41,931 nucleotides of DNA from a virus, in IMG/VR virus record IMGVR_UViG_3300033153_010157, positions 1-41,931 of that record. One strand, given 5' to 3'. The notes under the pieces were generated by a model. It was not told the origin of the DNA. It was given only the letters and a program-made list of their open reading frames with translations, and did not search any database. A program made the translations under genes and the position numbers. Below are positions 1,657-41,931 of the stretch, in pieces (position 1 is the first letter of the stretch; each line of letters begins with the position of its first letter).

Positions 1657-3030
1657 TTAATACTTAATCCGACCAGTCTGCCCGTCAGTATTGAAAAAGT
1701 CCGGCAGCTTCGACTCTCCGCCATAAACAGACTCATAACGAAGCTTTTCAAGCTCTTCTGCTGACAGATCATCTCTCGTTTTTGGTAGCGATACACACAT
1801 GTAACGTAAGGCATCACAGGCGTGACTGTATCTATCATGAAGTGGAACATTCTTGTATACCTGCCTCTTGTCATCATACTCCTGCCTGTAATTTTCTATT
1901 GCTCTTATAAGCTTTGCACAACGCTCCTCATCAATCCATATTTTACTTAAAGCTGAACGAACCGACTCAATGCCATCCATTATCGGAAGCTTTGGCGCAA
2001 TAATGAAATCAATGCCGAGATTCTTCGCCTTTTCAATGCGTGTCATGCCAGAACCAAACTCTTTAACCGCTATGTCATGAGGCGCTATGTGCTTGCCGTA
2101 GGTGTACTCCTTTGATAACACATGCTTGACGTAGTGCTCAAGGCCCTCCTTGCTCTTCTCGTAGTAATCAATAATACGAACAGTTTGACCTATGGTCTGA
2201 AAAAAGATGATGGAAGTAGAATCACGTACGCCGATGTCAAAAGCTGTGTGGACACTAAAGCCCGCCTCCCATGGAACAACGCTGACCTGGTTGTTGAGCC
2301 TCATCCTGTCCAGGTACTTGCAGTAGTACGAACCCTCAACTCCTGCATCAAACGAGACATAATATTCCTGCTGAACCAGATCGGGCGACATCAGTCCCTC
2401 GTGTATCTCTCGATCTATTTCAGCAGGATCTATGTGCCTGGTCTCATTAAGACCAAGCTTACAAGTCCACCATTCCGGTGAATTCAATGCTAATTGATAA
2501 ATATCCCAAAAGTGATTACGACCACGTGGCGTACTCTGGAATATCGCCCAACCCTTATTGGCAGCTAGTATTGGTGACATTAGGGCATAGATACGTGGGT
2601 TCTGCAGAGCATATTCAGAAAAAACAACGCCGCGAGGGTTAGTGCCCACGATTCTATCTGGATTATCAGACCCAATGATTTGAATAATGGATCCATTTGT
2701 AAACACTACCTTCATGTCTTGAGAGTTCATCGCCTCAACGGCCTGCTTGGGTATGTAGTCCAAGAAGCGATCGCCCTGTATGGTTACTGAGCTCCATAAG
2801 ATCTTCTTGCCCTGCGCGTACGTAGGATACACGAGGTAGTAGACCCCCGGATTGACGAGCGCTTCTCGGATGACGATGTTCCAGGTGCAAAGGTCCTTGC
2901 CAGCACGACGACACATGACAATCACCATCCTTCTGAAACGATCCTTGAAGAACGCCTCAAAGATTGGACGCTGGTAGTCACGCGGCTTGAACTTGTTAAG
3001 GTGTATCTTCACCTCCACTGGATATTGCAC
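1657..3030 (-). CDS. terL: Terminase large subunit
   Basis: A 457-residue packaging motor. It shows an ATPase Walker A variant (CRRAGKD, residues 40-46), a Walker B with a following acidic residue (GVVFSEY, 134-140) and a coupling motif QSTPRG (165-170). The nuclease domain follows, with FDIG at 264-267, a middle PHDI and a C-terminal HDRYSHACDALRY. The enzyme translocates phage DNA into the prohead and cuts it at the end of a packaging round. The start is GTG at 3030 preceded by AAGGAGAATA; it overlaps the end of the upstream 50-residue gene by 35 bases. All catalytic motifs expected for a working terminase are present. It lies about 4.5 kb from the probable small subunit, separated by a run of small genes. 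Confidence 0.97.
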   Translation of the reverse strand: MQYPVEVKIHLNKFKPRDYQRPIFEAFFKDRFRRMVIVMCRRAGKDLCTWNIVIREALVNPGVYYLVYPTYAQGKKILWSSVTIQGDRFLDYIPKQAVEAMNSQDMKVVFTNGSIIQIIGSDNPDRIVGTNPRGVVFSEYALQNPRIYALMSPILAANKGWAIFQSTPRGRNHFWDIYQLALNSPEWWTCKLGLNETRHIDPAEIDREIHEGLMSPDLVQQEYYVSFDAGVEGSYYCKYLDRMRLNNQVSVVPWEAGFSVHTAFDIGVRDSTSIIFFQTIGQTVRIIDYYEKSKEGLEHYVKHVLSKEYTYGKHIAPHDIAVKEFGSGMTRIEKAKNLGIDFIIAPKLPIMDGIESVRSALSKIWIDEERCAKLIRAIENYRQEYDDKRQVYKNVPLHDRYSHACDALRYMCVSLPKTRDDLSAEELEKLRYESVYGGESKLPDFFNTDGQTGRIKY

Positions 3031-4229: not shown

Positions 4230-4750
4230 CACTTCTCCTTTAGTATCTTGTCCTCAATCTCAAATACACGGTCAACGTAGGCTATACCCTTCTCAACACT
4301 CACCTTGCCATCACTGCCCTTCTCACACTTCTTGATCTTTAAGCGAGCCATCTCCTTCCTGACCGCCTCATCCATCACTGAGCGGTACGCATCGTTCGCC
4401 TCTGTACTACGCTTAGCAGACTCCATGCACACCTCAAATGCCTTATCTTGCTCATGATCTAGAAGTACGTATGCTTTGTACTTAGCGCCATACTCACTAT
4501 CTGCTGAGTGTGGCGGCGGGATGTCACCGATTCGTGCTGCTTCAATGAGATGCGTACTTGCACTACCGTACTCAATATTACACATCACCTCTGAAATGCC
4601 GTGTGCCTCAAAAGCAAAATCCGCAAAGTCACTACGGGCAAGAATGCTCTTATCCCTTAAGTACTGGTGCTTACGGCATAAAGTGTGATACTCATCCCTT
4701 GCATCATCAGACACCTTCTTTAACTCGCGACACCTCTTCCACTCTTCCAT
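4229..4750 (-). CDS. Hypothetical protein, 173 aa, ends DKILKEK
   Basis: A 173-residue hydrophilic protein that starts MEEWKRCRELKK and ends DKILKEK. The longer open frame upstream is rejected because ATG 4750 has AAGGAG five bases before it and the upstream frame overlaps another gene. The protein is helical at both ends, with four scattered cysteines, and carries a Pro/His motif IPPPHSADSEYG near the middle. No known domain was recognised. Its last codons overlap the repeated boundary unit that serves as ribosome-binding site for the next gene. Confidence 0.7.
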   Translation of the reverse strand: MEEWKRCRELKKVSDDARDEYHTLCRKHQYLRDKSILARSDFADFAFEAHGISEVMCNIEYGSASTHLIEAARIGDIPPPHSADSEYGAKYKAYVLLDHEQDKAFEVCMESAKRSTEANDAYRSVMDEAVRKEMARLKIKKCEKGSDGKVSVEKGIAYVDRVFEIEDKILKEK

Positions 4751-4872
4751 CACTTCTCCTTGTCCTCCTCGTACTGCCGCTTGGCCTCCTTGATCAGGTC
4801 CTCTAACGTTGCACACAAGCTGTCGAGGCTGTCTGCTATGCGTACCAGTGGGTCAATTGCCTTCTTGCTCAT
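4750..4872 (-). CDS. Tiny helical protein (40 aa)
   Basis: A 40-residue frame with start ATG 4872 preceded by AAGGAGCAAG. It is a single amphipathic helix (VRIADSLDSLCATLEDLIKEAKRQYEEDKEK). Its last codons GACAAGGAGAAGTGA hold the Shine-Dalgarno of the following gene, giving the end KEK. The start overlaps the end of the upstream gene by 20 bases. It may work as an oligomerising peptide; function unknown. Confidence 0.55.
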   Translation of the reverse strand: MSKKAIDPLVRIADSLDSLCATLEDLIKEAKRQYEEDKEK

Positions 4873-5062
4873 CTTGCTCCTTAAGGGTTATAACCCATTT
4901 TTCATTAGCTATCTTCGGAGATCCGGAACGTTGTTCAGCAGGCTCAGGGGGAGTATACTCAAAGACAGCATCATAGCTTTCCTGGAATATCATCTCTGTG
5001 CCGCCCGCGTGATCTAATTCTATAAAATAACCCTTCTTCCCGTCAGTTTGCTTCTTTGGCAT
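4853..5062 (-). CDS. Small acidic hypothetical protein (69 aa)
   Basis: A 69-residue protein. ATG 5062 was chosen because GAGAGGAGGCAG precedes it; the open frame extends further upstream but would cover the neighbouring gene. The sequence (GYFIELDHAGGTEMIFQESYDAVFEY, then a Pro/Glu linker, then EKWVITLKEQDEQ) suggests a small beta-rich fold. It overlaps both neighbours by about 20 bases, typical of this tightly packed run. No family recognised. Confidence 0.6.
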   Translation of the reverse strand: MPKKQTDGKKGYFIELDHAGGTEMIFQESYDAVFEYTPPEPAEQRSGSPKIANEKWVITLKEQDEQEGN

Positions 5063-5204
5063 CTGCCTCCTCTCTAACGATGGCGTCGTATTCCTTCTTG
5101 ACCTCTGGGTCCTTGATGACTTCTTCCCAAAAGGCCTTGAACGTTGGTCTTTTAGACTCAATGGCCTTGTCGAGTGCGTTGCATACGTCTTGCTCCTTAC
5201 TCAC
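5043..5204 (-). CDS. Small hypothetical protein (53 aa)
   Basis: A 53-residue frame starting at GTG 5204 in the repeated boundary GAGGAGACCAAGTGAG, where the upstream stop TGA and the start GTG overlap by four bases. The protein MSKEQDVCNALDKAIESKRP and onward is helical and hydrophilic. The N-terminal MSK recurs at other starts in this array (6562, 7516) because the boundary unit extends into the first codons. Function unknown. Confidence 0.6.
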   Translation of the reverse strand: MSKEQDVCNALDKAIESKRPTFKAFWEEVIKDPEVKKEYDAIVREEADAKEAN

Positions 5205-5551
5205 TTGGTCTCCTCGGGGTTGTCCTCTTTGTAAAAGCGCTCAATTTGCTGCTCTAGCGCGTCTCCGATACGGAACAAGCCTTCATATACAACCTGATGA
5301 CCAGAGTGATCGCTTCGGCGCACCTGTATAACTTCGGATATATAAAAGTCTCGAACAGTCACGCTTACTCTTGCTTTCTTGGTCTTTCCTACCTCAACAA
5401 CGCTATTAACGTCTTCATATGAGAATTTGCTATTGAACTCATCATAGGCCCTGCGCGCTAGCTCATCTCCCAGCTTTGTTGCGGGCGCGTAAGTCTTCCA
5501 CTTGAGCTCCTTACCGTCTGCGCTTACGCAGTACTCTACTGGTTCTCTCAC
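5201..5551 (-). CDS. Hypothetical protein of the PEETK array (116 aa)
   Basis: A 116-residue protein starting at GTG 5551 inside the type I boundary. It seems to be a mixed alpha/beta fold: an N-terminal beta part (VEYCVSADGKELKWKTYAP), a helix (LGDELARRAYDEFNSKF), strands (RVSVTVRDFYISEVIQVRR) and a C-terminal helix (LEQQIERFYKED). It ends NPEETK, from the boundary unit. I recognise no family. It is the last of the consecutive genes with this tail. Confidence 0.7.
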   Translation of the reverse strand: MREPVEYCVSADGKELKWKTYAPATKLGDELARRAYDEFNSKFSYEDVNSVVEVGKTKKARVSVTVRDFYISEVIQVRRSDHSGHQVVYEGLFRIGDALEQQIERFYKEDNPEETK

Positions 5552-5958
5552 TTGGTCTCCTCTGGTAAATAGTCTTTGACCCTTATGTGGACGTATTTCG
5601 TATCGCTGTCATCGCGGTAACCTATGTCATACGCGTGAAGAAGAAACGCATACTCTTCATAACGGCATATCGCTACATCCTTGTCCACAGATTCTCTTTG
5701 ATCGTCAGATATTACAAGCACGCACCACCAACCTATCTTCCCTAGCTCTCCACCAAGCGCGTGCTCTGGTTCTTCGTAAGTTAATATCGAAACGAACTCT
5801 GGCATCTCTGTAAAGACACGGGCTAAGTCTGGGTGACAGGCTATGATGAAATCGTGAATATAGTCGTCGGCATACGGTGCGTCCCTGACCTTTTCTGGGT
5901 CGCCTCCGGCCAGCTCCCAGGCTACTTTGTTTAGCTTTTCAAGCAGCTCGTTACTCAC
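5548..5958 (-). CDS. Coat-protein-segment paralogue A (136 aa)
   Basis: A 136-residue protein starting at GTG 5958 in the type I boundary. Residues 34-85 align without a gap to coat protein residues 186-237. Matching features are the His followed by x-Asp-Leu (CHPDL against AHSDL), the F at position 22 of the segment, Y-x-x-P, E-x-G-x-IG, and a closing L..S. The C-terminal 45 residues (AICRYEEYAFLLHAYDIGYR) also recall the coat protein's following FCVGMEAYACV stretch. It is closest to the 7124-7516 protein. It lacks the N-terminal half of a coat protein, so it cannot build a shell alone. It may bind capsids, modulate assembly or act as a decoy; this is inference. Confidence 0.75.
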   Translation of the reverse strand: MSNELLEKLNKVAWELAGGDPEKVRDAPYADDYIHDFIIACHPDLARVFTEMPEFVSILTYEEPEHALGGELGKIGWWCVLVISDDQRESVDKDVAICRYEEYAFLLHAYDIGYRDDSDTKYVHIRVKDYLPEETK

Positions 5959-6263
5959 TTGGTCTCCTCGTCTTTCCATCGTTTATCGCACACAAATAAT
6001 CTTACCTCACCTATTGATCCTATCTCGCCCTGCATTTTTTTTAACGCCAGTGGGTAGCTACCTGCTCCGATAAATCCATGTGCGCTTTCGATGTCGTCTA
6101 CCGCGCTCGCCGCACATGCTACAAACACGGCATACTTGCGGGGCTCATCGCTAAATATGGTTCCCATAAATCCACTATCTCCTGGAAGGGCACCGATAAG
6201 ATCAAACGTTGCGCCTCTTAGTTCGTTTGGTTTAAATACTTTCTCTTCCTCTTCAAGTCTCAC
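5955..6263 (-). CDS. Coat-protein-segment paralogue B (102 aa)
   Basis: A 102-residue protein starting at GTG 6263 in the type I boundary. Residues 43-94 align without a gap to coat residues 186-237, sharing GFI, YP, and the E-G-IG-R signature (GEIGSIGEVRLF). The conserved His of the other copies is Ala here. The protein ends soon after the signature (DKRWKDEETK), so it lacks the C-terminal strands present in copies A, C and D. Its N-terminal 40 residues (KPNELRGATFDLIGALPGDSGF) are unique. Start and stop are both set by boundary repeats. Confidence 0.7.
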   Translation of the reverse strand: MRLEEEEKVFKPNELRGATFDLIGALPGDSGFMGTIFSDEPRKYAVFVACAASAVDDIESAHGFIGAGSYPLALKKMQGEIGSIGEVRLFVCDKRWKDEETK

Positions 6264-6834: not shown

Positions 6835-7127
6835 TTGGTCTCCTCTGGCAGGTTGCGTGTCTTTGAAAACTCCCGATAAGTGGCTGATCCAAGTATCTGC
6901 CAGCCGAGGTCGCTGGAGAGTCTCAGTGTGTCGTTGCCCTTCAGGTCTTTGAACTCCTCCGTTTTAAGCATCTTTTCAACGAGGTAGTCGAGTGCGCCTC
7001 TGTAATTCTTTGAGTACATCTTATGTTTGTCGGCTAACTGCATGTACTGAACGTAAGTATCATCTGTCTGTATCTTCATGGTGCAGCATTGTTCATAAAG
7101 GTGCTGGAGGTGTTTTGGTATTGTCAC
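6825..7127 (-). CDS. Hypothetical helical protein (100 aa), LPEETKCS end
   Basis: A 100-residue protein starting at GTG 7127 in the type I boundary. It is helical and rich in Lys, Tyr and Met, with the middle part YRGALDYLVEKMLKTEEF. The boundary unit at its end lacks the A that would complete TGA, so the frame goes two codons further and ends LPEETKCS. This shows the boundary DNA can be carried even when it no longer supplies the stop. Function unknown. Confidence 0.65.
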   Translation of the reverse strand: MTIPKHLQHLYEQCCTMKIQTDDTYVQYMQLADKHKMYSKNYRGALDYLVEKMLKTEEFKDLKGNDTLRLSSDLGWQILGSATYREFSKTRNLPEETKCS

Positions 7128-7516
7128 TTGGTCTCCTCGGGCAGATAGTCTTTGACCCTTATGCGGATACAGGTCGTGCCAGAACGATTGATATAATCGA
7201 TGTCATACGCATGATAAAAACACGGGTCAAACTCATAGCGGCATATTGCTATTTCCCTGTCTTTGCAGCGTCTTATTGCGTCAGATGTTGCCAATAGTAT
7301 AAATGGGCCAATTCTACCTAGCTCTCCACCATACAGGTTCTCTGGCTCCTCTTCAGCCAAACTAGAAACAAACTCTTTCATTCCCATAAAGACAGGGGTC
7401 AAATCAGCATGACAGGCTATAATCAACTCGTAACAGGGATTCTTCGCAATCCCCTCAAGGTTAACGCCTGCTAGCTCCTTAGCTACGCTATTTAACTTGT
7501 CAAAAAGCTTACTCAC
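7124..7516 (-). CDS. Coat-protein-segment paralogue C (130 aa)
   Basis: A 130-residue protein starting at GTG 7516. Residues 28-79 align without a gap with coat protein residues 186-237: H-x-D-L, F, E-P, E-x-G-x-IG and L-L-x-x-S are shared. It closely resembles the 5548-5958 protein along its whole length, including the N-terminal KLN-VA-ELAG and the C-terminal IRVKDYLPEETK, so the two are recent duplicates. It sits directly after the probable small terminase gene, joined by a type I boundary. Role unknown; capsid binding or modulation is the natural hypothesis. Confidence 0.75.
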   Translation of the reverse strand: MSKLFDKLNSVAKELAGVNLEGIAKNPCYELIIACHADLTPVFMGMKEFVSSLAEEEPENLYGGELGRIGPFILLATSDAIRRCKDREIAICRYEFDPCFYHAYDIDYINRSGTTCIRIRVKDYLPEETK

Positions 7517-8022
7517 TTGGTCTCCTCAGGCAGGTTGATTGTTTTTGTGTCGTCTTTTTTGGAGAAGTCTTCGAGTACGAAGGTGTATCGGGTGTCGGTT
7601 GGAGCGTTGACTTGAGTACGTGCTTTGAGTTCGGCTCTCCATACTTCGAGGTCTTTCCATGATTTGTCGTATTTGGCCATTTGGTTCATGACCAGTGATG
7701 CGTTGAGTTTATTTTTGAGTGCGCCTATTTCGCGTCGATTGCCTATAAGCTCTAGGGCTGTGTCTTTGACGAGTTTTAGTGTTTCGTATTTATTGACCCA
7801 TCGGTAGAAGGTCATACTGGGAATGCCCTTTGAGAAGATGAACTGAGTGAGTTTGAGAGCTGTGTCGTCTTTCATGGCCCATTCGATTAATTCGAGGGCT
7901 AATCTGTCTATAAAAGCATCGCTTATTGGCTTCTGCCGAAGCGTGAAAAGGTCCTTGTAGACCTCCGCAACGGACATGGTAGGATTATACTCTTTTGTGT
8001 TATTGTTAAGAGTTTTGGACAT
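7513..8022 (-). CDS. Probable terminase small subunit
   Basis: A 169-residue protein from ATG 8022 (preceded by CAGGAG). The N-terminal part includes a helix-turn-helix-like stretch (GIPSMTFYRWVNKYE, about residues 66-80). A helical region typical of terminase small subunits follows (ELIGNRREIGALKNK ... KYDKSWKDLEVWRAELK). Such proteins form rings that recognise the packaging site and load DNA to TerL. The tail TINLPEETK belongs to the boundary repeat and not to the family. It is separated from terL by a run of small genes, which is unusual because the two subunits are normally adjacent. The assignment rests on sequence character and context, so other DNA-binding roles remain possible. Confidence 0.65.
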   Translation of the reverse strand: MSKTLNNNTKEYNPTMSVAEVYKDLFTLRQKPISDAFIDRLALELIEWAMKDDTALKLTQFIFSKGIPSMTFYRWVNKYETLKLVKDTALELIGNRREIGALKNKLNASLVMNQMAKYDKSWKDLEVWRAELKARTQVNAPTDTRYTFVLEDFSKKDDTKTINLPEETK

Positions 8023-11382: not shown

Positions 11383-11459
11383 GGGGCAGTAGCTTAATAG
11401 GTTTGAGCATCGGCCTTTCACGCCGGAGGTTGCGGGTTCGAATCCCGTCTGCCCTTCCA
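11383..11459 (+). tRNA. tRNA-Glu (anticodon UUC)
   Basis: A full cloverleaf can be drawn. The acceptor GGGGCAG pairs with CTGCCCT, the D stem is GCTT/GAGC, and the anticodon stem is TCGGC/GCCGG with loop CTTTCAC, so the anticodon is TTC. The T arm has loop TTCGAAT. The CCA end is encoded (11457-11459). The first acceptor pair is G-T. It reads GAA and GAG, codons that are frequent in the acidic early proteins. Confidence 0.95.
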
Positions 11460-11473
11460 CTAGACAGACAAAT

Positions 11474-11550
11474 GGGCCAGTAGTTTAAATGGTACAGAAC
11501 AGTGGACTCCAAATCCACAGGAGGGGGTTCGATTCCCTCCTGGCCTGCCA
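11474..11550 (+). tRNA. tRNA-Trp (anticodon CCA)
   Basis: The cloverleaf has acceptor GGGCCAG/CTGGCCT, D stem GTTT/GAAC, and anticodon stem GTGGA/TCCAC with loop CTCCAAA, giving anticodon CCA. The T-arm loop is TTCGATT. The discriminator base is G and the CCA end is encoded. It is an ordinary UGG decoder and not a stop suppressor. It follows tRNA-Glu by 14 bases in the same transcript. Confidence 0.95.
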
Positions 11551-13311: not shown

Positions 13312-13471
13312 CAAGATCAAAGTACTGACCATCGTGCACAACAAACCAATACGAGATATCGTCATGGAGGCAATCGACATATTCTCAGACCAGCCAGGCG
13401 AAAAAAGAGAGATAGCCAAGCTGAAGCACCATGTAGACAAGATGAAACACGACGCCAACCAGAAGGAATAA
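13259..13471 (+). CDS. Ribbon-helix-helix DNA-binding regulator (70 aa)
   Basis: A 70-residue protein starting at ATG 13259 after AAGGAGAAAGT. The pattern KFTVHIPQEYYDKIKVLTIV followed by NKPIRDIVMEAIDIF is a typical ribbon-helix-helix fold: one strand that enters the major groove and two helices. A short basic coiled tail follows (KLKHHVDKMKH). Such proteins act as dimers or higher oligomers on operators in phages and plasmids. It is likely the transcription regulator of this operon and could bind near the promoter at 13198. Confidence 0.8.
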   Translation: MSDKLRKFTVHIPQEYYDKIKVLTIVHNKPIRDIVMEAIDIFSDQPGEKREIAKLKHHVDKMKHDANQKE

Positions 13472-13472
13472 G

Positions 13473-13865
13473 GTGAACCGAGAAAAGCTAGACGAAGCCA
13501 CCATAAAACTAATGAAATACTGCACCACTCGCGAAAGTGATGCTGACTCTCGCGAGTGGTTCCTATCTGTTTGTCATCCCAAATCTGCCGCCGTCCTCAG
13601 GGACGTAAAAGGGTTTATACCGATTTGCAAATATGAATACCCAGAAGATGGCTTCGAAGGAGAGATAGGATCAATAGGAAACCTCAGGATACTGTTAGCG
13701 TCATATCATCGAGAACCAGAAGGCGACCACCATTACGTTACATCCTACCTGGTAAGCCATCAAGCCAGAATAAAAGGTACCCGCTTTGAACGTACATTCG
13801 ATATAGATGTAATGTCAGATATAAAAGTAATCGCAGCACTAGCCGCCAACCAAAAGGAAGACTAA
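13473..13865 (+). CDS. Coat-protein-segment paralogue D (130 aa), early operon
   Basis: A 130-residue protein; the frame starts 2 bases after the RHH stop (GTG, AAGG upstream). Residues 27-78 align without a gap to coat protein residues 186-237 with 20 of 52 identical. Shared positions include RE-x-F, the His, GFI, Y-x-x-P, and E-x-G-x-IGNLR-x-LL-x-S. This is the closest of the four paralogues to the coat protein. Unlike the others it lies on the opposite strand, in the early recombination operon, and lacks the PEETK end. Coat-derived proteins made early could prepare, regulate or mimic the capsid; no function is shown. Confidence 0.75.
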   Translation: MNREKLDEATIKLMKYCTTRESDADSREWFLSVCHPKSAAVLRDVKGFIPICKYEYPEDGFEGEIGSIGNLRILLASYHREPEGDHHYVTSYLVSHQARIKGTRFERTFDIDVMSDIKVIAALAANQKED

Positions 13866-14425
13866 TGCCAACAGATAAGGCCCCTAAAGCAGAAGTGAGA
13901 GGCGTACAAGAACAAATCAACGACCTGTCGGCACTCCAAAGATATGCACGAGAGATCGCGAAAAAAGACTTCTTCTACAACGTAACGTCACCTCAAACCA
14001 ACGAGATCGTAGCCGCACTAGCAAAGTTCAAAGAAGGCATGGGCGAAATGAAAACAGATAAGACCGCAGGCGGACGATACAAGTACCAGAGCCTACCGGG
14101 CCTGCTCAACGCCATCTCGCCAGGACTGGCCAAAAATGGCTGCGTATGCATGCAACCCGTCCAGTCACTAGGCGACACAACATACGTCATAACCATGATC
14201 ATGCACTCCAGCGGACAGTACGTACGATCCATCACCGCAATACCCGCACAATACCTCATGGCAGGTAAAATCGTAACAACCAAAGAAAATCTACAAGCAA
14301 TGGGCGGCGCAATAACATACACCAAACGACACTCACTTAAATCAATACTCGGCATAGACGCAGACGAAGATACCGACGGCGGTGGCGCAACATACACACC
14401 ACGGAGCAACTATGGAAACAACTGA
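13865..14425 (+). CDS. erf: ERF-family single-strand annealing protein 1
   Basis: A 186-residue protein starting at ATG 13865, overlapping the preceding TAA by one base. The ERF pattern is clear: YKYQSLPGLLNAISPGLAKNG near residues 75-95, a hydrophobic beta region (TYVITMIMHSSGQYVRS), and the characteristic MGGAITYTKRHSLKSILGID followed by an acidic DEDTDGGG. ERF proteins form rings that anneal complementary single strands and drive phage recombination and genome circularisation. It is slightly short, lacking a long C-terminal extension. A second, diverged ERF gene lies 2 kb downstream. Confidence 0.9.
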   Translation: MPTDKAPKAEVRGVQEQINDLSALQRYAREIAKKDFFYNVTSPQTNEIVAALAKFKEGMGEMKTDKTAGGRYKYQSLPGLLNAISPGLAKNGCVCMQPVQSLGDTTYVITMIMHSSGQYVRSITAIPAQYLMAGKIVTTKENLQAMGGAITYTKRHSLKSILGIDADEDTDGGGATYTPRSNYGNN

Positions 14426-16107: not shown

Positions 16108-16514
16108 AAAAGTGTACCGAGATGAGAATTTTGTAGGAAGGCTTGAGCTACTCCTTTCCAACGGTCCTGAGGCGTCTGTTCACCTTTACATATGGAACAA
16201 TGGCGAGCATGGATACGACGAATTCACGGCCCGTGAAATTATAGAAAAGCTAAAAGACATACTTAGCGATGCGGGCCTAACGCACTTCTTAGACACAGAA
16301 GAGCTTATGAGGATAAGATTAAGATTCTCCACACTTCAGTGCCCACGTAAAGACATATACAGAAACGCCATAGAGTGCGAAGACGATGAATTCTACATAA
16401 AAAAAGAAGAGAATGCAGTTTGCGCCATTGAAAGGCGACTACATATCATACTGGAAGATTACGGGTTGCTACCATACGAGGAGGATGATGACGATGGAAG
16501 CTGAGAAAGTGCCC
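16093..16514 (+). repeat. Type III gene-boundary repeat (DDGS end / MEAEKV start)
   Basis: GACGATGGAAGCTGA followed by R-AAAGTG occurs at 16093-16114 and again at 16490-16511. Each copy ends one protein with DDGS and starts the next with MEAEKV, the two frames overlapping. The junction at 14412 (ATGGAA...CTGAGAAAGT) is a weaker third copy. The genes joined are unrelated. Confidence 0.85.
16097..16504 (+). CDS. Hypothetical protein between two type III boundaries (135 aa)
   Basis: A 135-residue acidic protein starting at ATG 16097 (GAAAGGATCGACG upstream) and overlapping the previous gene by 11 bases. It has a beta-rich start (SVHLYIWNNGEHGYDEF) and a helical remainder (AREIIEKLKDILSDAGL). 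It ends in an acidic stretch and DDGS from the boundary repeat. No family recognised. It sits as a cassette between the three-module DNA-binding protein and the second ERF. Confidence 0.7.
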   Translation: MEAEKVYRDENFVGRLELLLSNGPEASVHLYIWNNGEHGYDEFTAREIIEKLKDILSDAGLTHFLDTEELMRIRLRFSTLQCPRKDIYRNAIECEDDEFYIKKEENAVCAIERRLHIILEDYGLLPYEEDDDDGS

Positions 16515-17261
16515 CAAAACGATACACATATGCTTTCCCGCCTTGAGGAACTTGAGGCATATGTTGAAAAGAAGATCCAGCAGCGACTCAAGAAAGAAAA
16601 GCCCGCGCCATACGAATCCGAAAAGACCGACCAGATAGCAACTGCACTCGCCAAGGCACAGGGCGAGTTCCCAGTAATCAACACCAACAGAGCCAACAAC
16701 TTCCTGTTCAACCAGTACTCCGACCTCGACATCATCATGCGAACAATACGACCCGCTCTTTCAGTGAACGGCCTTTCAGTGACACAACAAACCAAATTGA
16801 TAGACGATAAGATCATTCTCGTCACTAGATTGCGACACAAGTCGTCACAGTTCATCGAGACCAGGACCAGGATCATCCCCTCAAAGAACGATCTGCAGTC
16901 TTACTCGTCCGCGATGGATAAGATGAGACGTGGTGACATCAAGAGCCTCTTGAACATCACAATCGTTGATGATTACGACGACGACGATGGCGAACACGAC
17001 ATGAAAGAGGTACGGAAGGAGCGGAACAAAGGAACAGGTATAAATACCAGGTACGAAGCAAGAAGGGAGTCTTTCGAGCCCATCACTCAACACCAAGAAA
17101 GCGAACTGCAGTACATGCTCGGAGACTACCCCGATATCGCAGAAAACATCCTGGAAACCCTCAAAGTGCAAACACTAGCCGATATACCCAAGTCCAAGTT
17201 CGGACCCGTTAGGGATCAAGCTCAAAAGATTATCAACGCCAGGGAAGGCCGTAACAAATAA
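16494..17261 (+). CDS. ERF-family single-strand annealing protein 2
   Basis: A 255-residue protein starting at ATG 16494 (GAGGAGGATGATGACG upstream); the longer frame upstream lies in the previous gene. The ERF core is recognisable: ATALAKAQGEFP, YSDLDIIMRTIRPALSVNGL, VTRLRHKSSQFIETRT, then SYSSAMDKMRRGDIKSLLNI and an acidic DDYDDDDGE. The family's GSAITYARRY-type motif is altered to SYSSAMDKMRR. The C-terminal extension (EPITQHQESELQYMLGDYPDIAENIL) resembles a small helical domain seen after other annealases. It is diverged from the first ERF, so this is an old duplication or a second acquisition and not a recent copy. Confidence 0.85.
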   Translation: MEAEKVPQNDTHMLSRLEELEAYVEKKIQQRLKKEKPAPYESEKTDQIATALAKAQGEFPVINTNRANNFLFNQYSDLDIIMRTIRPALSVNGLSVTQQTKLIDDKIILVTRLRHKSSQFIETRTRIIPSKNDLQSYSSAMDKMRRGDIKSLLNITIVDDYDDDDGEHDMKEVRKERNKGTGINTRYEARRESFEPITQHQESELQYMLGDYPDIAENILETLKVQTLADIPKSKFGPVRDQAQKIINAREGRNK

Positions 17262-36169: not shown

Positions 36170-37120
36170 TTATGGTGCTAGGGTTGTACGTAAGTTGATG
36201 ATCCACTCATCGTTCAAGATGCGAGGAACCTCAGCAAACTTATATCCAACAGAAGCATTGAGTGCGAGTGGCCCGTCATAAATAGGCGGACGATAGATGA
36301 ACTGAGCAGAATATTGATCTTGTTCAACACACGCATAAGCTTCCATCCCAACACAAAAGATATTGTATCTCATCGCACCAAGCGCCGAAGCCCCAATTTC
36401 ACGAGAGCCGACCGAGGACAACAAGAATCTTAGATTCCCAATTGCTCCCCACTCCGATCTCGTAGCATTCATAGGCGACGGATACTGCGCTTTGGCAATA
36501 AAGCCAGCGGTAGCATCAAGCTCGCCAATGAGGTCTGAGTGCGCCAATGCGAAAAAAGATTCTCTAACTGGAGCAGTTCCGAACTTATCTTCACCTTCAA
36601 TATTGTCCATTATAGTATAAGCGTCTGCTCCAACAAGAGTTCTAACAACGGTGTCAATATCACCAATTGTAACTTCTGTTGGGTTATCGCCGTTGACACC
36701 ACCGACGCAGTTGATAGCAGCCGCACCTGCAGCAAGCATCTCACGTGTCAGTTGATCTTCGGTCTGTCTTAGAGAAACACCCAATCGCTTAGCTGCTTCA
36801 TTCAATACAGGATCTTGGTTCTGGAGGGTAACCTGCTCGTTCAGTTGAACGTAGGTACCATAAAACGAAATCTCTGCATCGATGTCGATAGCTGTGAGCA
36901 ATTGTGATGGTGGATGAACCCCGCCGTTCCCCAATGGAACCATAGCGGTTTCTAACGGATTATATCTCCTCATCCTAAGCGTTGTTCCACCTTTAGCAGG
37001 CATAGTCTTTTTGACAGCCGCTATCTTGTGGATCAAGTTAGGAACCGGAACACTGAGTAATTTCATGGAGAATGAATGTTGGACCGGTGCTGGGAGATTC
37101 GCCGTAGTTGTAATAGGCAT
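36170..37120 (-). CDS. Major capsid (coat) protein, N4-gp56-like
   Basis: A 316-residue protein starting at ATG 37120 (TTAGGATAATT upstream). The N-terminal half is helical with a typical coat N-arm and E-loop region (KTMPAKGGTTLRMRRYNPLETA). Residues 186-237 contain the coat-family segment: AHSDL, GFI, YPSP, and EWGAIGNLRFLLSS. HK97-fold coats of the N4-gp56 group carry a Glu-x-Gly-x-Ile-Gly signature at the same place. The gene follows the scaffold and precedes decoration-type genes. A late-type promoter and a three-copy repeat lie in its leader. Four small proteins elsewhere in the window share its 186-237 segment. Confidence 0.88.
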   Translation of the reverse strand: MPITTTANLPAPVQHSFSMKLLSVPVPNLIHKIAAVKKTMPAKGGTTLRMRRYNPLETAMVPLGNGGVHPPSQLLTAIDIDAEISFYGTYVQLNEQVTLQNQDPVLNEAAKRLGVSLRQTEDQLTREMLAAGAAAINCVGGVNGDNPTEVTIGDIDTVVRTLVGADAYTIMDNIEGEDKFGTAPVRESFFALAHSDLIGELDATAGFIAKAQYPSPMNATRSEWGAIGNLRFLLSSVGSREIGASALGAMRYNIFCVGMEAYACVEQDQYSAQFIYRPPIYDGPLALNASVGYKFAEVPRILNDEWIINLRTTLAP

Positions 37121-40035: not shown

Positions 40036-41931
40036 CTATCCTGGCCCAGCTAAGTCAGTAGCCGCGCTCTTTGCCTGCTGCATCGAGGTAGCCACCGCTG
40101 CGGGCTTTGCAATATCAACTCTTTGCTCTTCCGCACTCTCCTGTGCCGCTAGCAACCGTGAGAGCTGAACAAGCTTTTCAAGCTGCTGTATGTCTATCGT
40201 CTCTATCTCTTGCAGCGCCTTAACGATGTTCAGTACGCCTTGAGTTCTATCCTTTTCGGCCTCTGCGCGACGTTCAACGGCAAGTGCCTCGTTCTCTTGA
40301 ACCCTGCTGAACCGCTCAACACCAAGACCCTGATCTGCAACCGTGCGCGCCTTGGAAAGCTCAATCTCTGCATGCGCCTTGGCCATCTCGGTCTGCAACT
40401 GCATCTTCTCAAGCTCTGCCTCTTCCTGCTGCTGCTGCATAACAGACTCAACAAGCTCCTTCTTGTTCTGTAACGTGGTGGCCTCAAGTATAACATCGTC
40501 CGGTATCGCAACTCCAACTTCCTTAAGGTGAAGCAATTGTGCAAACTGCATCTGTCGTTGCGTAGTTGTATTAATGCCCTCTTCAACCGCTGCGTCATAC
40601 TTGCCAAACGCTTTGTTATAGAACTGATCAGTTGGCTGCTGCTCTATAATGTTCTCTACCTTGCCCGGAGTAAAGTTGCTTTGAATAACGTCGAGCATGA
40701 GGCCGCCAAGCAACTTCTGCGACCTATCAAGCTGGTCAAACAGGATCTGCAAGGTGGTCAGGCCAGCACCTTGACGCAGCATGGATAGTATTCCGGCCTT
40801 CTCATCGGTTGCACTACCTAGAAGCTCTTCATTAACACCCGATATCTCTTGTATCTCACGTCCTAGGAGCTCCGAAAGCTGGATCATCGAAGGCGGGATC
40901 TGAGGAGGCATGATCTGCTCAACATCTGTCATGAGCGCAGTCTGCTTAAGTGCAAGACCTCGACCTTGACCAGACAAGAACACATCTTTGGGATTGACCA
41001 GCGAGTCGATCTTGTACTTGAATCCTGAGTTTATCTGACTCTCAAGGATATCAAGCTCGATCACCTTTCTGCGATTGTAAAGATACTGGGAATCGCGGAG
41101 ACCTCGTACGATCCCCTGTATCCTCCAAGGATATTCCGACATCTGAGGGTTGTAATACCCAAAAACGGGAACAAATGGATACTTATCTGTGCCCATCGTG
41201 TTAGGTCCGTCATACATAACCGCTCCCTGAACAACAACAGCCATCCTTACAGTGGGAACTTCACTTTCTATGACAGACACACGTGGGTAGAACTTTAAAT
41301 ACTCTTTAAGCGCATCCTCATCGTCGCTGCGCCACTCCATTGTTTCGCCAGTAACTGTATCAACCAGCATCTTTTGTGATCGATAGTCCCTGTAGTAGAA
41401 CTCATCGTACGCTAGAAGGTTCTTTGGACCAGCGTTATAACTTTCAGGCATGTAGTTGAACTTGCCGTCACGGTCATCCTTGGCAGGTAACGCCATGACG
41501 CGATCGTAGTGATCGGGAAGCAGTGATAAGACCTCGCGCCTGTTGAGATACGAGCGCCGCCATATGCCATTGCAGTCGGATAAATCCTTTTTCCTAAAAT
41601 AGGGATCAATCAGAAATGCGTTGTGCGCGCAATTGTCCACCCGTATAGAGCCGGATACTGGATCGGCCCGATAGTCGACCCAGACCTGTAGTAGATTCAT
41701 CCCAGTAACAAGAGACCCATGGAACGCCTCCGATACTGTATCGAGCACACCCTCCTTCTGATTGATCCACATTAGAATCTTTGTAAACTGATCCGAAGTG
41801 TCAGCATCACCGTTCTCGACCGGAGTCACGATCGTCGACTTACGGTTACGACGCTGCCACCCAGATATCATATTGACGACACGCCTTATACGATTGAAAT
41901 TGAACTGTCGACGACGATTGTTCGGTATGAG
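40036..41931 (-). CDS. Portal protein, residues 60 to the end (gene begins at the left end of the window)
   Basis: An open frame of 631 codons and a stop that continues across the contig end into 1..291, giving a 690-residue portal. After the MISGWQRRNRKS region come mixed alpha/beta domains typical of P22-like portals (DNCAHNAFLIDPYFRKKDLS, DEFYYRDYRSQK) and the long helical C-terminal part. The last 150 residues form a Gln/Glu-rich coiled coil (VMQQQQEEAELEKMQLQTEMAKAH), similar to the barrel helices of P22 gp1. It should form the packaging and ejection channel and bind the gp4-like adaptor. An ATG at 41871 is internal and is not the start. Confidence 0.9.
   Translation of the reverse strand, partial: LIPNNRRRQFNFNRIRRVVNMISGWQRRNRKSTIVTPVENGDADTSDQFTKILMWINQKEGVLDTVSEAFHGSLVTGMNLLQVWVDYRADPVSGSIRVDNCAHNAFLIDPYFRKKDLSDCNGIWRRSYLNRREVLSLLPDHYDRVMALPAKDDRDGKFNYMPESYNAGPKNLLAYDEFYYRDYRSQKMLVDTVTGETMEWRSDDEDALKEYLKFYPRVSVIESEVPTVRMAVVVQGAVMYDGPNTMGTDKYPFVPVFGYYNPQMSEYPWRIQGIVRGLRDSQYLYNRRKVIELDILESQINSGFKYKIDSLVNPKDVFLSGQGRGLALKQTALMTDVEQIMPPQIPPSMIQLSELLGREIQEISGVNEELLGSATDEKAGILSMLRQGAGLTTLQILFDQLDRSQKLLGGLMLDVIQSNFTPGKVENIIEQQPTDQFYNKAFGKYDAAVEEGINTTTQRQMQFAQLLHLKEVGVAIPDDVILEATTLQNKKELVESVMQQQQEEAELEKMQLQTEMAKAHAEIELSKARTVADQGLGVERFSRVQENEALAVERRAEAEKDRTQGVLNIVKALQEIETIDIQQLEKLVQLSRLLAAQESAEEQRVDIAKPAAVATSMQQAKSAATDLAGPG
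41818..41931. repeat. Terminal direct repeat, right copy
   Basis: Identical to bases 1-114. See the left copy: the overlap places the portal gene across the join. Confidence 0.95.

Follow-up and report, generated by a model that had tools for sequence, protein, structure and literature searches.

Why would a tailed phage encode, apart from its coat gene, a small protein that resembles part of the coat? The gene that raises this question lies on the plus strand of the window, by which we mean the whole 41,931-nucleotide stretch of viral DNA analysed here. A first-pass annotation had described its product, P0001, as carrying a 52-residue segment of the phage's own coat protein. The features concerned are these.

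13473-13865, plus strand: P0001, a free-standing A-domain of the coat, 130 aa, with AGAAGGA ahead of its GTG start
13551-13706, plus strand: segment matching coat residues 186-237, 52 codons, 20/52 identical, gap-free
36170-37120, minus strand: major coat protein of the N4-gp56 family, 316 aa, TIGR04387 E 5e-39

Positions 1-114 and 41818-41931 of the window form an exact 114-bp terminal direct repeat, and a minus-strand portal gene (start near 299) crosses the window ends; the genome is therefore circular or terminally redundant, and complete or nearly so. Two adjacent tRNA genes lie at 11383-11547, and the host is not settled by the window's tRNAs.

P0001 matches the axial domain of an N4-type coat

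The likeness between P0001 and the coat is real. Ungapped alignment of P0001 residues 27-78 with coat residues 186-237 gives exactly the 20 identities in 52 positions that had been counted, and 13551-13706 is the correct DNA. A single BLASTP comparison extends this to 21/54 identities (E 4e-9), and the alignment score of 84 was reached by none of 5000 shuffles of P0001, the highest of which scored 56. P0001 also matches the NCBIfam model TIGR04387 (N4-gp56 major capsid; E 5.2e-8, residues 6-75 against model positions 155-231 of 324) and PHROG 1357 (major head protein; E 4e-6), and a Pfam search with it returned no match. When five free-standing proteins, with no coat included, were compared as a profile with 49 coats, hhalign gave a probability of 97.4% (E 1e-11) over coat residues 150-264. 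The profile check against HK97-fold coats that the first-pass annotation had proposed was thus positive, and the 52 residues it had delimited proved to be the core of a longer homology that reaches coat ~150-264. On the combined evidence of BLASTP, TIGR04387, shuffling and profile-profile comparison, we reject a chance likeness.

The reused part of the coat can be placed on the known structure of N4 gp56. Through the coat profile, coat residues 84-234 align to N4 gp56 128-293. The A-domain of N4 gp56 carries two extended loops at 184-203 and 300-328 (PMC11768535), and because the aligned region falls inside the A-domain, the reused part is, as judged from sequence, the axial (A) domain of an N4-type HK97-fold coat, ~150-264. 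P0001 lacks the N-arm, the E-loop and most of the P-domain, in keeping with the earlier observation that the N-terminal half of the coat is missing. An extra loop of N4 gp56, residues 223-242, runs along inter-A-domain interfaces (PMC11768535); the matching coat loop, DNIEGEDKFGT, is shortened or replaced in the free-standing proteins. Most pieces retain the E-x-G-x-I-G motif and the coat strands.

Structure prediction is consistent with this assignment. The P0001 model reaches a pLDDT of ~90 over residues 41-70, and its secondary-structure elements, helices as well as strands, line up at a constant offset of 159 residues with those of the coat model, which is itself of low confidence (pLDDT 49.8). 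All of the top 13 PDB fold matches to the P0001 model are N4-type major capsid proteins (best E 5e-3, probability 1.00), as the proposed structural superposition had anticipated; the model was built from an alignment containing coats, which makes the fold match a consistency test that is not independent of the sequence match. The model also matches three small phage proteins in BFVD, UPI001CE5850F (127 aa), A0A8D9CCE8 (130 aa) and A0A6J5LGY3 (198 aa), with Foldseek probabilities of 0.85-0.93 and low TM-scores; these may be further free-standing A-domains.

The window carries several free-standing coat pieces

Searching the window with P0001 (phmmer) returned the coat and three other small genes, all on the minus strand. 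A weaker candidate lies close by.

5548-5958, minus strand: free-standing coat A-domain protein; the likelier GTG start, which lies in a linker, gives 136 aa, and an upstream ATG at 5979 gives 143 aa
5955-6263, minus strand: free-standing coat A-domain protein, 102 aa, short C-terminus
7124-7516, minus strand: free-standing coat A-domain protein, 130 aa
4853-5161, minus strand: candidate coat C-terminus piece (coat 266-311), start codon uncertain, weaker than the others

The phmmer matches to P0001 have E values of 9e-8 (5548), 1.7e-3 (5955) and 3e-4 (7124), and those to TIGR04387 of 2e-4, 6e-4 and 0.02, respectively; 5955 also matches the coat HMM (E 2e-6). The 5548 and 7124 proteins are paralogues (54.6% identical; phmmer 1e-36) that carry the match on through a coat strand around residues 251-262, and their C-termini differ from that of P0001 and from the coat, as does that of P0001. 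All of these proteins fall below the 60-bit TIGR04387 family cut-off (P0001 32.5, 5548 20.6, 5955 19.1 and 7124 14.2 bits, with 23.4 bits for a piece from a relative, L020, described below). Such a shortfall is to be expected of a piece like P0001: a full family member has N-arm, E-loop, P-domain and A-domain, and the pieces cover coat ~150-264.

By these matches the window carries at least four predicted free-standing A-domain genes besides a normal coat gene. P0001 is accordingly not the single coat-derived protein that it had been taken for, and its reported position beside a recombination gene is correct. The 4853-5161 product resembles the coat C-terminus (QxxYxAxFxYxPP ... PxIxNxxWxIxL); its score of 55 was reached by 0 of 5000 shuffles (top shuffle 54), and its best BLAST match to coats has an E of 3e-4. 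It is likely a coat C-terminal piece, and we hold it as a candidate only, because the coat HMM gave no significant match (E 0.4) despite the shuffles. A search of PADLOC-DB with six proteins gave zero matches at E<=1 to described defence families.

Minus-strand coat pieces lie in a gene run joined by repeated linkers

The pieces occupy two distinct neighbourhoods, with the following landmarks.

1657-3030, minus strand: terminase large subunit (TerL), beside the portal gene in relatives; Pfam GpA_ATPase E 0.006, below cut-off
7513-8022, minus strand: conserved 169-aa gene, probably the terminase small subunit, a name taken from gene order in relatives
13865-14425, plus strand: ERF-family recombinase gene, directly downstream of P0001; Pfam PF04404 E 5e-15
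13453-13468, plus strand: left copy of a 16-bp direct repeat (15/16), spanning the P0001 ribosome-binding site
13844-13859, plus strand: right copy of the repeat, which with the left copy flanks the P0001 gene

The three minus-strand A-domain genes sit between the 7513-8022 gene and TerL, which lies downstream of them. P0001 adjoins the ERF gene, and the same gene run holds a second ERF-family recombinase gene at 16413-17261 (Pfam ERF E 6e-11). In two relatives (L165 and L172) the ERF gene adjoins the homologue of 13259, the gene on the other flank of P0001 in the window, with no P0001 between them. The repeat that flanks P0001 is matched in score by only 1 in 500 random pairs of 40-nt stretches. 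Between 5201 and 7530 on the minus strand, successive small genes are joined by an 18-bp linker, CCNGAGGAGACCAAGTGA, which holds a ribosome-binding site and an overlapping stop and start; it occurs at 8 sites against 0.12 expected. Because this linker recurs at the junctions, many of the small 5201-7530 proteins end in PEETK. The simplest reading of this arrangement is that cassettes are exchanged through recombination at the linkers.

Related phages carry other pieces at other sites

We looked for further pieces among IMG/VR relatives, for which coat matches numbered 378 confirmed for the window coat, at least 589 for a related clade-1 coat and 158 for a second clade. Whole records were searched for 141 of these, 48 of them of at least 30 kb and most of them fragments, and the ORFs of about 230 loci were scanned with the coat profile. 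Recognisable pieces turned up in only a few of these relatives.

L020, 7400-7765: free-standing piece in the head operon, between conserved 335-aa and 136-aa genes
L007, 933-1409: free-standing piece between the homologue of 370-732 and the portal gene, just upstream of the latter
L156/L158, 22-489: free-standing piece directly upstream of TerL
L028, 5549-6175; L025, 1273-1899; L029, 3708-4241: chimera of coat pieces in shuffled order with a portal-like stretch

L007 is nearly identical to the window: the two coats are the same, and the phages are 82-99% identical over the compared stretches. The L007 piece is a clean ~490-bp insertion, a stretch that the window lacks, and an independent assembly (L266) encodes the same protein at 100% identity. 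The chimeras carry PTxITRDDI (coat ~146-166), followed by the coat N-arm/E-loop region (~20-88; E 5e-12 against the window coat); their 23-residue portal-like stretch, with GxNDELLG, resembles portal GVNEELLGSA (E 0.005). The L028 and L029 chimeras are 80% identical.

Apart from that 23-residue stretch, TerL, portal, scaffold and other gene families yielded no such set of dispersed pieces when scanned in the same way. A ~125-aa head-operon protein (L030, 4475-4849; L079, 4512-4880; about 60 others) repeats ~177-287 of a 337-aa protein encoded downstream of the coat; it is common in relatives and was not found in the window. Here one domain is common to the 337-aa protein and a small head gene next to it, a situation unlike that of the dispersed coat pieces. 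Peptide-pattern scans of IMG/VR found zero intact orthologues of P0001, 5548 or 7124, so this family is fast-evolving or rare, and among isolated phages in GenBank the only credible matches were coats.

Two sets of candidates were set aside. An antisense coat fragment in L225 (the 81-codon match in G359) is probably an assembly artefact, or else fresh debris. Short coat ORFs in L117 and L150-L153 are instead parts of coat genes split by intervening sequence. These coat genes, in L117, L150, L151, L152 and L153, lie on contigs binned with Chlamydiota genomes; L117 has an antisense LAGLIDADG-like ORF at 4438-5337 (minus strand) with its interrupted gene, and Rfam at the gathering threshold found no known intron family in the interrupted coat genes. 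Coats of the window's family (L117, L147, L148 and L156) occur on contigs of 9 of the 234 Chlamydiota genomes searched, where misbinning is possible; the L117 coat is 75% identical to the window coat.

Purifying selection in two pairs, and the case against fresh copies

Purifying selection acts in both pairs tested. For 5548 against 7124, dN/dS was 0.36/1.14, with dS near saturation, and for the L028 and L029 chimeras it was 0.12/0.83. A specific link of P0001 to the phage's own coat, as first proposed, is not supported by comparison with other coats: P0001 scores 40.0 bits against its own coat, with a clade median of 39.7 and 43.1 for the best other coat, and we reject a recent self-copy on these scores. 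For 5955 the own coat gives 33.5 bits against a median of 38.7, and own-coat scores are near or under the clade median for P0001, 5955 and the L020, L007 and L156 pieces. The L156 piece is closest to clade-1 coats (median 64.7 bits, against 47.0 for a coat on another contig of the same bin, although the two contigs may be different phages). The coat closest to 5548 is the window's own, at 31.6 bits. For most pieces, then, related coats are at least as near as the coat of the carrier, and we conclude that the pieces did not arise by recent self-copying. In a tree, P0001, 5548 and 7124 form one group (91/88), but long branches meet there, and the other pieces are unplaced.

What free A-domains may do

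Judged by its sequence, P0001 is a free-standing A-domain, and its gene belongs to a set of such genes scattered through this phage and its relatives. We tentatively favour the reading, to which we give rather less than an even chance, that free A-domains are trans-acting capsid-interference proteins directed against the shells of other phages. The A-domain would have been cut from coat genes and put to new use as a small soluble protein that has kept its recognition of capsid subunits. As the A-domain is the source of contacts round the centre of each capsomer, a lone copy could capture the free coat subunits or the capsomers of a co-infecting phage, and shell assembly would be poisoned or redirected. 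The carrier's coat may be spared because the pieces have drifted from it and have lost the loop that in N4 lies between A-domains, and the piece genes would behave as exchangeable cassettes joined at ribosome-binding-site linkers. That the pieces are diverged, multiple, and gained and lost counts for interference, as does the precedent of SaPIbov5 Ccm, discussed below. Against it, the pieces may just as well have given up capsid contact along with the inter-A-domain loop, the place of the L020 copy in its own phage's head operon is equally suited to a role in assembly, the coat nearest to 5548 is the window's own, and recognisable pieces occur in few relatives.

The main rival, which we consider unlikely, turns the same proteins against the host: free A-domains would bind coat-sensing immunity of the CapRel, Thoeris or Lit type without triggering it, or occupy the sensors before the coat appears. 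Capsid sensing is well documented (CapRel, PMC9712102; Thoeris, PMC11312562; list, PMC10884400), several diverged copies would suit an arms race, and, of the structural proteins, only the coat turned up repeatedly in pieces. The place of P0001 among recombination genes would also suit production before the coat, a timing read from gene position only; three copies, however, lie beside terminase genes and one in a head operon, where early expression is not obvious. CapRel and Thoeris are moreover activated by coat binding, such that a mimic risks triggering them, and Sau-Thoeris is described as sensing the hexameric form (PMC11312562), which a lone A-domain lacks. The positions of other copies would fit a role in the phage's own head. 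By taking a place in capsomer centres, at the portal vertex or in a scaffold complex, an A-domain might tune assembly or shell size, as would befit the L020 copy within the head operon, the L007 copy just upstream of the portal gene, and the L028/L029 chimera with its coat N-arm/E-loop segment and portal-like stretch. Such a factor would not be essential, because it is missing from most relatives with the same head module; a near-identical phage gained its copy through insertion, and P0001 is distant, on the other strand and among ERF genes. We regard this role as unlikely too.

A task unrelated to capsids, such as inhibition of a host enzyme, for which the A-domain would serve merely as a stable fold, is improbable. 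It would account for a core fold that is kept while capsid-facing loops change and for the dissimilar C-termini of P0001 and 5548/7124, but not readily for the persistence of the E-x-G-x-I-G motif and coat strands in most pieces, or for the other coat parts that also stand free (the N-arm/E-loop region in L028/L029 and the candidate C-terminus in the window). That the pieces are functionless duplicated coat fragments, open by chance, seems very improbable. Phage genomes do recombine at linkers, and the L225 fragment may be an example of such debris; every piece, however, is an intact ORF, most of the genes have a ribosome-binding site and are closely spaced within their operons, dN is below dS in both tested pairs, and pieces recur in several records.

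A broader form of the interference reading, which we put forward as doubtful, is that these phages keep a shuffling repertoire of A-domains, and of mosaics of coat N-arm/E-loop and portal-like segments, as linker-swapped cassettes against competitor shells or capsid-sensing immunity; the cassettes would be to phages what Gag-derived restriction factors are to retroelements. Coat proteins are among the triggers that bacterial immunity favours, and phage satellites target them as well. A set of phages that repeatedly re-encodes one coat domain as small mobile genes, and hardly any terminase or portal, offers reagents for probing how assembly is sabotaged or sensors are fooled.

Comparison with known systems

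The pieces share the sequence and fold of the A-domain (coat ~150-264) of N4-gp56 major capsid proteins (TIGR04387), including the conserved E-G motif. Solved coats of this family include those of N4 (gp56, 9e99), Shigella phages B2 (9d82) and Moo19 (9d7z), and phage DEV (gp77, 9bgn). Unlike these coats, the pieces consist of the A-domain only, in separate genes beside an intact coat gene. The open-access literature that we searched yielded no account of phage proteins made of the A-domain alone and no direct precedent for free-standing capsid pieces or capsid decoys. Interference by coat homologues is already known; isolated, multi-copy A-domains beside the phage's own coat were not found in that literature.

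Tab and anti-Tab exemplify phage-encoded meddling with virion assembly, in which Tab targets the tape measure protein (PMC10884400). Anti-Tab lies between terminase genes (PMC10884400), as do the three minus-strand copies in the window. Tab, by contrast, is not reported to be a coat piece, the comparison being one of descriptions and not of sequences, and we found nothing to mark the carrier as a prophage, which is where the Tab system occurs. The Ty1 restriction factor p22/p18 is a C-terminal part of the capsid protein made without the rest (PMC4599808, PMC8458377). It resembles the phage pieces in that part of a capsid protein is made alone, and differs in being identical to Gag and produced from an internal start in the same gene, whereas the phage pieces are diverged, separate genes with a different fold.

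The Ccm protein of SaPIbov5, an HK97 coat homologue, lowers the titre of phi12 by 10^3-10^4-fold, and escape mutations map to the coat gene (PMC5052747). Like the pieces described here, Ccm is homologous to the HK97-fold coat of a phage and has its own gene, separate from that of the coat (PMC5052747). Unlike them, it is nearly full-length and resides on a satellite that blocks its helper, whereas the pieces are single domains, present in several copies, in a complete phage with a coat of its own. If the interference reading is true, capsid-derived restriction factors, known from retroelements and staphylococcal islands, would extend to complete tailed phages.
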